A DNA stretch of 50,148 nucleotides from Clostridia bacterium (GTDB lineage Bacteria; Bacillota; Clostridia; Oscillospirales; CAG-272): NCBI GenBank assembly GCA_017462545.1, contig JAFTQX010000028.1:1-50148 (forward strand). The letters are read 5' to 3'. The notes under the pieces were generated by a model. It made no database searches and had not been told where the DNA came from. It saw nothing but the letters and a program-made list of their open reading frames with translations. Below are positions 4,385 to 7,872 of this stretch, piece after piece. How positions within the stretch are numbered: position 1 is the stretch's first letter; the number at the start of each line of letters is the position of its first letter. A program made the position numbers and the translations under genes.

Positions 4385-5566
4385 TTATTTTTCGATATAT
4401 ATTTTCTCCGCGCGCGGAGAAAGGTGACAGAGCAGCTCATAGGGGATGGTATGTGCGCGGCGGGCAAGAGCGGCAAGCTGGCGGCCGCTTTCCTCGGTCA
4501 CCACCACCGCCTCCCCCACGCGGGCTTGGGTGCTGCCAAGATCCAGCATGCATTGATCCATGCATACGCGGCCAATGATGGTGGCAGGCTGCCCACGCAC
4601 CAACAGCGTCCCTCCCGTGGCGGCGCGGGGCAGCCCATCGGCGTAGCCAATGGCGGCAAGGCCGACCCGTGTGTCGCGTACAGCACGAAAATCCCCTCCG
4701 TAGCCCAGTCGCTCTCCCGCGCGCAGGGTGAAAACGCGCGTCAGACGCGTCTCGACCCGCGCCACCGCCCGCAGGCGGGGGGCAAGGGCGGCGGGAAAGG
4801 CGCGCGCGGGCGGAATGCCGTACAGCGCAATGCCGGGGCGGTAGCCGTCAAAGCCCAGCGTGCCGAGCGAAAGTGCCGCTGCGCTGTTGGAAAAATGGTA
4901 AACATATCCCTCGCCCATCTGCCGTCGCACACGACAAAAGGCGCGCAGCTGCTCCTCGGTTTGGTGAGAGCGCGGCTCGTCAGCCGATGCCGGGTGGGTA
5001 TAAATGCCGCACAGCTGCACGCCGGGCAGAGCGGCCAGCGAGCGCAGGGCATAAGCGGTGCGCCGCCCATCCAGCGCGCGCGCGGCGGGAAAGCCAAGGC
5101 GGTGCATCCCCGTATCGAGCTTGACATGGCAGGAGAGAGAGCTGCCGCGCGGCAGCTCCCCCCGCGCAACAGCGCGCCGCACCTCTGCCGCATAGGCGCG
5201 GATATCCTGCTCGCTGCCCACCGTGGCGGTGATGCGTTGCGCGGCCATCTGCGGCGCATCCTCTCGCGCGATGGGGGAAAGAACAAGAAGCGCGACATCC
5301 GGCAATTCCCTTCGCAGGGCAAGTGCCTCGTCTGCCGTGGCTACGGCAAAAAAATCAGCCCCCGCCTTGTGCAACGTGCGGGCGCAGGGGATAGCCCCGT
5401 GGCCGTAGGCATTGGCCTTCAGCACGCAGATCGGGCGCGGCTTTTTTGCCCCCACGCAACACACGGGTGGGGGGATATGCTCGGCGTAGGCGCGAATTTG
5501 CAAGAAATTCTCGCGCAGGGCGGCAAGGTCGATCGTGATGCGACAGAGCGGATGCGTGCCCATCAT
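4385..5566 (-). CDS. alr: Alanine racemase
   Basis: Cytosolic PLP enzyme interconverting L- and D-alanine for peptidoglycan precursors. Length is 393 residues, near the usual 370-390. The PLP lysine is in V-L-K-A-N-A-Y-G-H-G (Lys about 50). The second catalytic base, a Tyr, lies in R-L-G-Y-G-G, and the M-D-Q-C-M-L-D segment near the carboxylated-Lys/active-site region is present. The ATG at 5566 overlaps the upstream lipoprotein stop (ATGA) and has GGGAGG about 7 bases before it; a second ATG at 5563 is equally possible. A residue run K-K-P-R near position 41 between the first strand and the PLP lysine is a small insertion compared with most Alr proteins. Confidence 0.93.
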   Translation of the reverse strand: MMGTHPLCRITIDLAALRENFLQIRAYAEHIPPPVCCVGAKKPRPICVLKANAYGHGAIPCARTLHKAGADFFAVATADEALALRRELPDVALLVLSPIAREDAPQMAAQRITATVGSEQDIRAYAAEVRRAVARGELPRGSSLSCHVKLDTGMHRLGFPAARALDGRRTAYALRSLAALPGVQLCGIYTHPASADEPRSHQTEEQLRAFCRVRRQMGEGYVYHFSNSAAALSLGTLGFDGYRPGIALYGIPPARAFPAALAPRLRAVARVETRLTRVFTLRAGERLGYGGDFRAVRDTRVGLAAIGYADGLPRAATGGTLLVRGQPATIIGRVCMDQCMLDLGSTQARVGEAVVVTEESGRQLAALARRAHTIPYELLCHLSPRAEKIYIEK

Positions 5567-6084
5567 GCCGCGCCTCCCGGCAAGAGACGCAGCGAAAGCG
5601 AGGGCGATGTAAAGAGAAGCTCGCATACCCGACCGTCCTTGTCGAGCTGCACGGTATAGTCTCCCTCCGCATCCGACATGCGCAGCTTATGGGAATCATC
5701 CTCCTGCGCCGTGGCCGCAAGGGCAGGAGAGAAAAAGCGCAGCATGGCGAAATGACCGTCTGCATCCCCCTGTATATCGTGCTTGACCCCGTCCAGCGTG
5801 AGTGTGATACGGCCGTCCTTCCTGTGCGCGGTCACCCCTTTCAGCGCGGCAGGCGCGGAATAGGTCAGGCGCGCCTCGCGCGCAGCGGGCTCATCTCCTG
5901 CCGTTAGCGTCAGATGGCCGATGTAGGTACGGTCATTCGCTGTCCAAATGATCTCGCCGTCGTAGCCTGCGCGGCAAAAATCCATATAGGCGGCACGCAA
6001 GCTGCTTTTCCCGCAGGCGGATGCCGTCAGCGCGAGGATGATGCAGGCAAGCAAGACACACGCCCGCCGGATGGTGATTTTCAT
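5563..6084 (-). CDS. Small lipoprotein, function unknown
   Basis: 173 residues. An N-terminal lipoprotein signal (basic start, hydrophobic core, lipobox L-T-A-S-A-C at about residue 21) is followed by a soluble beta-rich domain without recognised catalytic motifs. The pattern of alternating hydrophobic strands is reminiscent of small outer-surface lipoproteins that monitor or assist cell-wall assembly, but I do not recognise a family. The start at 6084 is set by the signal peptide; GGAGG lies 11 bases upstream, a slightly long distance. The stop overlaps the alr start, so the two are co-translated. A cell-wall link is inferred only from this pairing. Confidence 0.75.
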   Translation of the reverse strand: MKITIRRACVLLACIILALTASACGKSSLRAAYMDFCRAGYDGEIIWTANDRTYIGHLTLTAGDEPAAREARLTYSAPAALKGVTAHRKDGRITLTLDGVKHDIQGDADGHFAMLRFFSPALAATAQEDDSHKLRMSDAEGDYTVQLDKDGRVCELLFTSPSLSLRLLPGGAA

Positions 6085-6160
6085 GTCGTCCGTTACCTCC
6101 GTTTTCTTTGGTTCTCTCCCCATTTTATGCGCAACAAGCGGCAAAAATGAAGAAAAGCCA

Positions 6161-6189
6161 TTGCAAAATTCCCCCTCGTGTGCTACAAT
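6161..6189 (+). promoter_or_regulatory. Promoter of the cobalamin riboswitch transcript
   Basis: TTGCAA (6161-6166), a 17-base spacer and TACAAT (6184-6189). Transcription would start about 10 bases before the first paired element of the riboswitch. Confidence 0.75.
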
Positions 6190-6199
6190 ATCCTCGTTC

Positions 6200-6380
6200 G
6201 GGAAAGGGGTGTCCTTTGGGACTGAAACCGGAAGCGGGGTGAAAATCCCCCACGAACCCGTCGCCGTGTTTGGCGTTTCTCTATGCTCCCCACGCCGCGC
6301 CGCAAGCGGGGTGCTGCCACTGTGCATTGCATGGGAAGGTTGGGAGAGGAGAGCCATCAGTCGGAATACCTGCCCTTTGT
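6200..6380 (+). promoter_or_regulatory. Cobalamin (B12) riboswitch
   Basis: The leader carries the hallmarks of the adenosylcobalamin class. There is a GGTGAAAATCC-like P3 loop around 6237-6250, an ACCCGTCGCCGTG segment, a CCACTGTG segment at about 6317, and a GGGAAGG stretch. The B12 box AGTCGGAATACCTGCC lies at 6359-6374. AAAGGG (6203-6208) can pair with CCCTTT (6373-6378) to close P1. Downstream, GGCGT (about 6389-6393) and ACGCC (about 6428-6432) may form part of an expression platform before the ribosome binding site at 6452. Cobalamin would turn the downstream genes off. Confidence 0.93.
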
Positions 6381-6465
6381 CTGCCACAGGCGTGCTGCGA
6401 TGCTCAGCCGAGATCTTCTCCCTGTGACGCCGAGCGAAAAAATCAAAAAACAGGAGAAAAAAGAC

Positions 6466-6954
6466 ATGAAGAGACAAGTATGGACCTCTATTCTCTCCAT
6501 CCTTTTCGTCCTGCTGATTGCGGCAGCAGTGGTGATGACAGGATGTGCAACGCCAAACGACAACACCGGCAACGGTGACGTTGGCGGCGAAAACGGCGCA
6601 GAGACGCCGGAAACAGCCTACGGTGCCGAGATCGTGGCCGAGCGTGAGCTGGGCGATGGCGCCGTGGCCTTTACCTTTACTGTGGTAAATGCCGAGGGGA
6701 AGGCAACCGTTTACACCATCAAGACCGATGCCGCCGATCTGCGCACGGCGCTGACCGAAAACGGTCTGATTCCCGCCGGCAACAAGGGTGATCTGGTGAA
6801 CACGGTAGACGGTATTACGGCCGATTGGAATGTGGATCAGGGCTGGTGGAAGCTGCTGGCAAACGGCAGCATGGATATGCTGAATTACGGCGTCGATGAT
6901 GCTGCCATTACCGCGGGCGCAGATTACGCCTTCGTTTACACCAAGGGTTTTTAA
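6466..6954 (+). CDS. DUF4430 (transcobalamin-like) lipoprotein
   Basis: 162 residues: lipoprotein signal peptide with lipobox V-M-T-G-C at about residue 25, a low-complexity linker rich in Gly, Asn, Asp and Glu (about 26-45), then a single DUF4430 domain to the C-terminus. Recognised features are the Y-T-I-K-T-D-A-A-D-L-R-T-A-L segment, W-W-K-L-L-A-N-G, and the closing D-Y-A-F-V-Y-T pattern. DUF4430 matches the C-terminal beta domain of intrinsic factor and transcobalamin, which contacts cobalamin. It directly follows a cobalamin riboswitch and precedes an ECF S component by one base. I infer a surface-anchored B12 or corrinoid catcher handing ligand to the membrane transporter. The ribosome binding site AGGAG is at 6452. 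Confidence 0.88.
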   Translation: MKRQVWTSILSILFVLLIAAAVVMTGCATPNDNTGNGDVGGENGAETPETAYGAEIVAERELGDGAVAFTFTVVNAEGKATVYTIKTDAADLRTALTENGLIPAGNKGDLVNTVDGITADWNVDQGWWKLLANGSMDMLNYGVDDAAITAGADYAFVYTKGF

Positions 6955-6955
6955 G

Positions 6956-7492
6956 ATGGCAGAGGGGCATTCCTACCGCCGCTCGCTTGTGCGACTGCGT
7001 GCCCTCGTACGGGATGCGCTGCTTGGCGCGGTGCTGGTCTTTTGTAAGGAGCTGCTTGCCTTTTTGCCAAATGTAGAGATGGTCAGCATGCTGATCATCG
7101 CCTACACCGTGGTCTATCGGTGGCGAGCCTTGGTGCCGATCTATGTATTTGTGGTGCTGGAGGCGGTGCTTTACCCCTTTCCGCCCACGGTGGTAATGTA
7201 TCTTTACGTATGGGCGATCTTGTTTTTGGTCGTGCTGCTTTTGCCGCGGAAGGTGCTGCCTGCGCCTGTCTATATGCTGATCGGTGGGCTGTTCGGCCTG
7301 GCCTTCGGCGCGCTGTGCGCGCCGGTGCAGGCTGCCTTCTTCCACCTGAGCGCGCAGGGAACGCTTGCCTGGATCGCTGCCGGCTTTTCCTTTGATATCA
7401 CCCACGCTGTTGGCAATGTGGCGATCTGCTGTCTGACCCCTGTGGTCATCCGGCTGCTGCTGCGGCTGGAAAGACATTCATTTTCAAATTGA
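6956..7492 (+). CDS. ECF transporter S component, probable cobalamin type
   Basis: 178-residue membrane protein with about six hydrophobic segments after a basic N-terminus, the size and shape of energy-coupling-factor substrate-binding (S) components. It starts one base after the DUF4430 gene stop and has only a weak AAGGG before it, so it is probably coupled. No EcfA/EcfT genes are nearby, as usual for group II ECF systems that share one energising module encoded elsewhere. The riboswitch and the B12-domain lipoprotein suggest cobalamin or a precursor as substrate, similar in role to CbrT. This assignment rests on context, not on a substrate motif I can point to. Confidence 0.82.
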   Translation: MAEGHSYRRSLVRLRALVRDALLGAVLVFCKELLAFLPNVEMVSMLIIAYTVVYRWRALVPIYVFVVLEAVLYPFPPTVVMYLYVWAILFLVVLLLPRKVLPAPVYMLIGGLFGLAFGALCAPVQAAFFHLSAQGTLAWIAAGFSFDITHAVGNVAICCLTPVVIRLLLRLERHSFSN

Positions 7493-7530
7493 AAACCAAA
7501 AAAGGTTGCAATGCAACCTTTTTTGGTTTT
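7492..7530. terminator. Bidirectional terminator
   Basis: A perfect 19-bp inverted repeat (7492-7510 and 7512-7530) with A- and T-runs at the outer ends. It overlaps the last base of the S-component stop codon and can serve both this operon and the convergent SLOG gene. Confidence 0.9.
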
Positions 7531-7542
7531 GATATGTATGGG

Positions 7543-7872
7543 TTACTTGCAGATGATGACCTTGCACTCTTTTTCACATTTTTTGGCATATTTGATAACG
7601 GATAAGGCTCCTTTTGAGGTGCCGTTCCAAAAAACAATGACCTTATCCGCATAATCAACAATTTCTTTATTCCTTATAATCGGTGCTGCACGACCGTAAA
7701 GCGCATACTGGGGTAAAAATTCGGTCAGCTTCAACCCATTTTCCTTCGCATATTCTGCTGCACAGCGATCTACTCCTATTGCACCACCTGAAACAATCTC
7801 GTCACCCTCTGAAACAAAGTCTGTGATATTGTCTACGATAATGTTTCTTGAGCCAACAATTGCAATTTTCAT
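7543..7872 (-). CDS. Small SLOG-family (YspA-like) protein
   Basis: 109 residues with a Rossmann-like SLOG fold: I-V-G-S-R near the N-terminus, the nucleotide-binding S-G-G-A-I-G-V-D at about residues 28-35, and R-N-K-E-I-V at about 67-72. This resembles the cpYpsA/YspA (DUF2493) group, thought to bind nucleotide-derived ligands. Related SLOG proteins act in nucleotide signalling and some anti-phage systems, but a lone small member like this has no assigned role. AAGGAGGAATT precedes the ATG. Base composition is clearly more AT-rich than neighbouring genes, and the divergent neighbour is a ribbon-helix-helix protein, which suggests a recently acquired pair. Confidence 0.82.
   Translation of the reverse strand: MKIAIVGSRNIIVDNITDFVSEGDEIVSGGAIGVDRCAAEYAKENGLKLTEFLPQYALYGRAAPIIRNKEIVDYADKVIVFWNGTSKGALSVIKYAKKCEKECKVIICK

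Follow-up and report, generated by a model that had tools for sequence, protein, structure and literature searches.

A riboswitch-led transcobalamin-beta-like lipoprotein and CbrT-group S component as a predicted corrinoid-uptake unit in Clostridia

A riboswitch and two genes in close succession

We analysed a 50,148-nt stretch of DNA from a gut-type bacterium of the Clostridia (Oscillospirales, CAG-272; assembly GCA_017462545.1, contig JAFTQX010000028.1, positions 1 to 50,148 of the forward strand), hereafter the window, and focused on a locus in which a cobalamin riboswitch precedes the genes for a small lipoprotein and for the S component of an energy-coupling factor (ECF) transporter (Table 1). 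The aptamer matches the RF00174 covariance model above its gathering score, is the sole RF00174 match in the 2.0 Mb assembly (81% complete) and ends 74 nt before the lipoprotein start codon. The S component gene begins one base past the lipoprotein stop codon, as the original prediction from the letters of the window had stated.

Table 1 Features of the locus, in window coordinates.
Feature	Position	Strand	Details
Divergent gene, putative lipoprotein	5563-6087	-	Leader ...TASACGKSS; start ~100 bp from the riboswitch; no Pfam match above cut-off
Promoter-like site	6161-6189	+	TTGCAA-17-TACAAT, extended -10 TG; 9/12 consensus bases; abuts aptamer start
Cobalamin riboswitch aptamer, RF00174	6190-6391	+	62.6 bits, gathering 31.5; model 1-189 (full length)
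Candidate Shine-Dalgarno (SD)-masking hairpin	6416-6458	+	UUCUCC-CUGU paired with the SD region ACAGGAGAA (SD AGGAG, 6452-6456); predicted fold of 6392-6500
Lipoprotein gene	6466-6954	+	ATG 6466, TAA 6952-6954; 162 aa
DUF4430-like domain of the lipoprotein	6649-6948	+	Residues ~62-161
ECF S component gene, CbrT group	6956-7492	+	ATG 6956, TGA 7490-7492; 178 aa
Perfect 19-bp palindrome at unit end	7492-7530	.	Arms 7492-7510 and 7512-7530, 100% complementary
Convergent gene	7543-7872	-	Small, SLOG-type (DNA_processg_A / YAcAr)

The lipoprotein has a transcobalamin-type beta domain

The lipoprotein consists of a hydrophobic leader whose lipobox-like motif VMTGC contains Cys27 (recognized by eye and with a permissive pattern), a linker, and a C-terminal DUF4430-like or transcobalamin-beta-like domain, and from the leader we infer that the protein is lipid-anchored. 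The permissive pattern also fits 76 of the 77 relatives in the second survey set described below, whose start codons were picked with the same pattern. At five surveyed loci (L004, L009, L012, L015 and L020) the DUF4430 protein is still paired with the S component and has an N-terminal hydrophobic helix without a lipobox cysteine; the anchor therefore seems different there.

A single DUF4430 or transcobalamin-like domain had been proposed for this protein, and the domain was borne out by fold and not by Pfam score. Against the Pfam family DUF4430 (PF14478) the window lipoprotein gave no match at E ≤ 1, falling short of the gathering score, and a six-frame PF14478 search of its own genome gave no match either; filing it under PF14478 by its own score was rejected for this reason. 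PF14478 matches 40 of 42 aligned members of the family (window included), and the window lipoprotein has a direct match (E 1.1e-4) to 3U7Z, a bacterial protein of solved structure. We call it DUF4430-like because of these relatives, the 3U7Z match and its fold. Structure comparison with intrinsic factor and transcobalamin, the check first suggested for it, gave a clear match to transcobalamin-type beta domains, covering the whole domain and standing well above unrelated folds. The match is specific to corrin-binding beta domains, and those fold neighbours with known ligands bind corrinoids. The layout of transcobalamin and intrinsic factor, with an alpha toroid and a beta domain in one protein, was not found in this 162-aa, one-domain protein, which is hence better described as working like the beta half than as being a transcobalamin.

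That the lipoprotein binds some other ligand, such as a metal ion, strikes us as very improbable. Its nearest solved relative, 3U7Z (RUMGNA_00854 of Ruminococcus gnavus), was deposited as a 'putative metal binding protein', but this label is the depositor's guess, whereas both the ligands of the fold neighbours and the genomic context point to corrinoids.

The S component groups with CbrT

No Pfam or NCBIfam family was found for the S component, and none was common to its 38 aligned members; as a single sequence it had no match in the PDB. A profile of the 38 members, searched against the whole PDB, found one S component, chain A of 6FNP (E 2.6e-20), in a match that spans profile positions 4-174 of 177 and includes a motif common to both, FD-x2-H-x3-N. 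The next row up to E 10 was a major facilitator superfamily chain at E 4. The 6FNP chain is named only 'Membrane protein' in the PDB, and we identified it as CbrT from the accompanying paper and its 182-aa length. 6FNP is ECF-CbrT of L. delbrueckii, which carries out ATP-driven import of cobalamin and cobinamide (PMC5997447; this source, PMC9963975, PMC5599065 and PMC6143338 are cited from the parts of their text available to us). The window protein, homologous to this S component over its whole length, thus groups with a cobalamin transporter; a grouping with a non-cobalamin family would have spoken against the original prediction. Its structural model (predicted local distance difference test score 95.3) has the S-component fold.

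As in the L. delbrueckii system, the S component gene is served by a common motor. The genome has one match to EcfT (PF02361), on contig C75 outside the window, beside two ABC-ATPase-like frames (ABC, ATP-binding cassette) of which one was confirmed by Pfam, an arrangement of the Group II type in which the EcfA-EcfA-EcfT motor is encoded apart from the S component. A search with PF02310 found one protein, identified as MetH by its pterin-binding and homocysteine methyltransferase domains together with both B12 domains. CobS (PF02654) and CbiD (PF01888) were not found in the 81%-complete genome. The presence of MetH and one EcfT and the failure to find CobS and CbiD fit a bacterium that is auxotrophic for B12 and depends on importing the complete cofactor.

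The unit could instead import a B12 precursor (a lower-ligand base, alpha-ribazole or cobinamide) rather than complete cobalamin, a reading that overlaps in part with the corrinoid uptake proposed below and that we consider improbable. The CblT group of S components imports B12 precursors, and B12 riboswitches also control precursor import. ECF-CbrT itself also takes cobinamide (PMC5997447). Precursor use, however, needs nucleotide-loop assembly, which the missing CobS argues against within the limits of assembly completeness, and the S component matches CbrT, in a comparison made without any CblT sequence.

The pair recurs behind cobalamin-type riboswitches

Recurrence was surveyed in two sets of relatives, which are not independent samples. 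The first comprised 197 genomes of the order, a pair being defined as an S-component place within 700 bp after a lipoprotein place; the second comprised 80 loci retrieved through similarity to the S component, from named assemblies whose titles nearly all give Clostridia or their families, and 4 of these loci overlap the first set. An S-component place followed 61 of 86 lipoprotein places (window included) in the first set, and the lipoprotein lay directly upstream of the S component in 77 of the 80 loci of the second. The paired genes abut or overlap, with a median of -4 nt to the nearest possible start (76 pairs), a count that takes the start codon nearest the stop and favours small gaps. 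Outside the pair, and leaving aside a reading frame antisense to the S component gene, the most widespread neighbour family was present at 7 of 80 loci.

A cobalamin-type riboswitch was found within ~900 bp upstream of 47 of the 61 order pairs, consisting of RF00174 above gathering in 34 and a variant, R1, in 13 more. In the second set a riboswitch preceded the lipoprotein at 71 of 80 loci (R1 at 64, RF00174 at 7, with 15 loci scanned for RF00174). The stricter statement that RF00174 always precedes the pair was rejected on the first-set count. For DUF4430 proteins at large, a listed RF00174 lay ≤6 kb upstream on the same strand at 53 of 150 listed PF14478 places and at 41 of the 121 without a following S component, among the matches listed. 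The B12 context expected for DUF4430 lipoproteins therefore holds for those in pairs and is looser for the domain in general. Of the three conditions named at the outset as refuting the prediction, the two examined here, S-component grouping and B12 context, thus favoured it for the paired form.

Some loci depart from the simple pair. DUF4430 lipoproteins without this S component adjacent occur at L013, L014 and L026, each after a similar 384-aa gene, and at L031, with a strong RF00174 match (88.6 bits) upstream. At L036 (391-1278, minus strand) a normal pair is accompanied by another lipoprotein gene, whose product has two DUF4430-like repeats.

R1 is a conserved variant of the cobalamin-type riboswitch whose core reads GCAACAGCCATTACCGTA ... 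AAGTCGGAATGC. In the second set it precedes most of the DUF4430-CbrT pairs, at 64 loci of L062-L141 (L081:4298-4420 among them), and it also occurs at L016, L045, L028, L145 and others. Its fold is supported by covariation: the alignment has 20 pairs with 97.7% of cells paired and 11 pairs changed on both sides, counted on the same alignment from which the structure was derived; 0 of 500 shuffles were as good, and slid controls reached 31-47%. Of the 80 loci on which the R1 model was run, 42 had served to build it, and 22 of the remaining 38 also match it at E < 1e-4. The Rfam models score R1 for the most part below their cut-offs. For 50 of the 80 loci the genomes were searched: AdoCbl-II matched in 33 at E ≤ 0.01 and in 3 over the cut-off, with 5 of 14 control genomes also matching; for RF00174 in the same 50 the figures were 14 and 5, with 9 of 14 controls. 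At L081, the one locus scanned, terminator-like hairpins lie between R1 and the gene.

Relatives also have larger ECF operons (L155:950-6499 with L166:106-789, and L154, L157, L160, L164, L167 and L168) encoding proteins of 480-560 aa in which a toroid-like N-terminal half (Prenyltrans/SQHop) is joined to a C-terminal DUF4430 domain, which is the transcobalamin layout. Prenyltrans/SQHop scored above the Pfam cut-off at L155, L160 and L164 and below it at L154 and L157. Pfam confirmed EcfT and a double EcfA at L155, and S components at L166, L168 and L167 (partial) and, fused to ATPases, at L164; elsewhere these components were assigned by frame size only. RF00174 was listed upstream of some of these operons, among the matches listed. 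Ahead of the large DUF4430 protein, L155:950-1759, L154:834-1607, L156:4564-5373 and L163:612-1406 encode a conserved secreted protein of 258-270 aa that has a membrane segment at its C terminus; its N-terminal half looks DUF4430-like by eye and had no convincing Pfam or PDB profile match. Together, R1 and the toroid-DUF4430 operons strengthen the B12 link of the pair.

Proposed mechanism and alternatives

We propose, at a probability of roughly 0.7, that the locus is a self-contained, riboswitch-controlled unit for corrinoid uptake: the lipoprotein would catch a corrinoid at the cell surface with its beta domain, and the S component of the CbrT group would import it through a common ECF motor. 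By analogy with other riboswitches of its class, the RF00174 aptamer would be empty when intracellular cobalamin is low and both genes would then be expressed, with cobalamin presumably repressing them and the SD-masking hairpin as the candidate switch. The lipoprotein, presumably anchored by its lipid to the outside of the cell membrane, would bind the corrinoid with its single transcobalamin-beta-like domain, just as the beta domain of human transcobalamin by itself binds cyanocobalamin and cobinamide. It may then hand the corrinoid over to the S component for transport by the EcfA-EcfA-EcfT motor encoded elsewhere in the genome, and the imported cofactor could serve MetH.

Several observations weigh against corrinoid capture by this lipoprotein, beginning with its predicted binding site. 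The corrin contacts of haptocorrin include Arg357, Trp359 and Tyr362 (PMC4350170). By HMMER alignment, the haptocorrin loop maps to 'xYGLY' in the bacterial family, with residues assigned by the spacing R-x-W-x2-Y in our own reading. Aromatic residues occupy the Trp359 column in 103 of 119 rows and the Tyr362 column in 110 of 119 (window included). The window protein has a gap and a Leu at these columns, with no aromatic, and its loop corresponding to haptocorrin Trp359/Tyr362 is shorter by two residues in the alignment, so its site is not the standard one. The window lipoprotein thus has a divergent predicted binding loop; its Trp128 corresponds to a tryptophan kept in 119 of 119 rows.

The surveys add counts of the same tendency. 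The other 25 of 86 lipoprotein places, many of them weak matches, had no following S component, and the parts thus also occur apart. Conversely, 21 of 84 S-component places had no listed lipoprotein or DUF4430 upstream (among the matches listed, many of them weak); by profile, L033 and L039 of these 21 do have an upstream lipoprotein, and L053, L057 and L060 do not. In the second set, 3 of 80 S components (L128, L132 and L134) lack a lipoprotein, and none of the three has an R1 match, the Rfam scan having covered L128. Above-threshold riboswitches were missing from 14 of the 61 order pairs (11 had no match, 2 had a sub-threshold RF00174 and 1 lay at a contig end), and 80 of the 121 unpaired DUF4430 places had no listed RF00174 ≤6 kb upstream, among the matches listed.

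The missing loop aromatics, present in most relatives, would suit a lipoprotein that docks to the S component or gates it (for stability, orientation or as a lid) while the S component alone binds the substrate. The near-overlap of the two genes suits obligate partners as well. ECF-CbrT of L. delbrueckii was active as a purified complex in proteoliposomes and supported growth of E. coli, so an extra binder was not required in that case (PMC5997447). This alternative nevertheless seems unlikely to us: the lipoprotein fold matches corrin-binding beta domains specifically, most family members keep the loop aromatics, and lipoproteins without an adjacent S component, one of them behind RF00174 (L031), suggest a role of their own.

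A bolder form of the capture proposal, which we put forward tentatively and hold to be rather doubtful, is that lipoprotein and S component form a composite corrinoid clamp, the beta-like domain closing over the outward S cavity as beta closes over alpha in transcobalamin. The toroid-DUF4430 ECF proteins would then represent the missing intermediate, and the B12 carriers of vertebrates might derive from such bacterial ECF accessory proteins.

Relation to known systems

To our knowledge, ECF transporters are described as lacking a separate binding protein, the S component itself catching the vitamin. The available parts of the ECF-CbrT paper (PMC5997447) describe no extracytoplasmic binder, and 'lipoprotein' and 'riboswitch' are absent from its main text, in contrast to the window unit. 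The novelty first claimed for a surface binder in ECF-mediated B12 import is weaker than supposed, as 'additional lipoprotein component of putative cobalamin ECF transporter' is the annotation of L. rhamnosus K8Q211 in a proteomics table (PMC9963975). A DUF4430 protein whose gene lies near rtpR, LGG_02295, is also mentioned in the available text of that paper, which does not state that it is identical with K8Q211. K8Q211 is known to us by its annotation string, and we liken it to the window lipoprotein by description, as having the same predicted role. The idea of a capture lipoprotein is therefore already present as annotation; in the open literature we found neither an experiment on such a protein nor functional work on any bacterial DUF4430 protein, subscription journals lying mostly outside the search.

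Compared with the beta domains of human transcobalamin, intrinsic factor and haptocorrin (5NP4, 2PMV and 4KKI; PMC5599065), the window protein is single-domain, lacks an alpha domain and the aligned aromatic loop residues, and is presumed lipid-anchored. The nearest functional parallel to its predicted role is BtuG of Bacteroides, a lipoprotein at the cell surface that captures B12 and supplies it to a membrane transporter (PMC6143338). The likeness drawn here is one of role, and BtuG differs in that its partner is the outer-membrane BtuB and its femtomolar affinity has been measured.

Because a B12-switched, transcobalamin-beta-like lipoprotein is tied to CbrT in the surveyed loci, our analysis suggests that many Clostridia respond to B12 scarcity by adding a capture protein at their surface. 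If so, this would help to account for the way in which Gram-positive auxotrophs compete with host carriers and with Bacteroides that have BtuG, and the lipoprotein would give a bacterial counterpart to the domain used by human B12 carriers.

Leader elements and flanking genes

The riboswitch had been predicted to have its own promoter. The riboswitch itself stands, and a promoter-like site is present; a scan of 1.7 kb gave 2 sites of this kind against a chance expectation of 1.0, so the site is no rarer than chance and its support is its position before the aptamer. It was rejected as evidence for this reason. The SD-masking hairpin, a candidate translational off-switch by predicted folding, was likewise rejected as evidence: in the fold of 6392-6500 it was not better than shuffles (z-score 0.18), and it is missing from the predicted fold of the whole leader (z 0.61).

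The palindrome at the end of the unit was not among the terminator-scan results; it is common to the B12 unit and the convergent SLOG-type gene and is probably a bidirectional terminator for both. On the other side, the unit is flanked by the divergent putative lipoprotein gene (Table 1).
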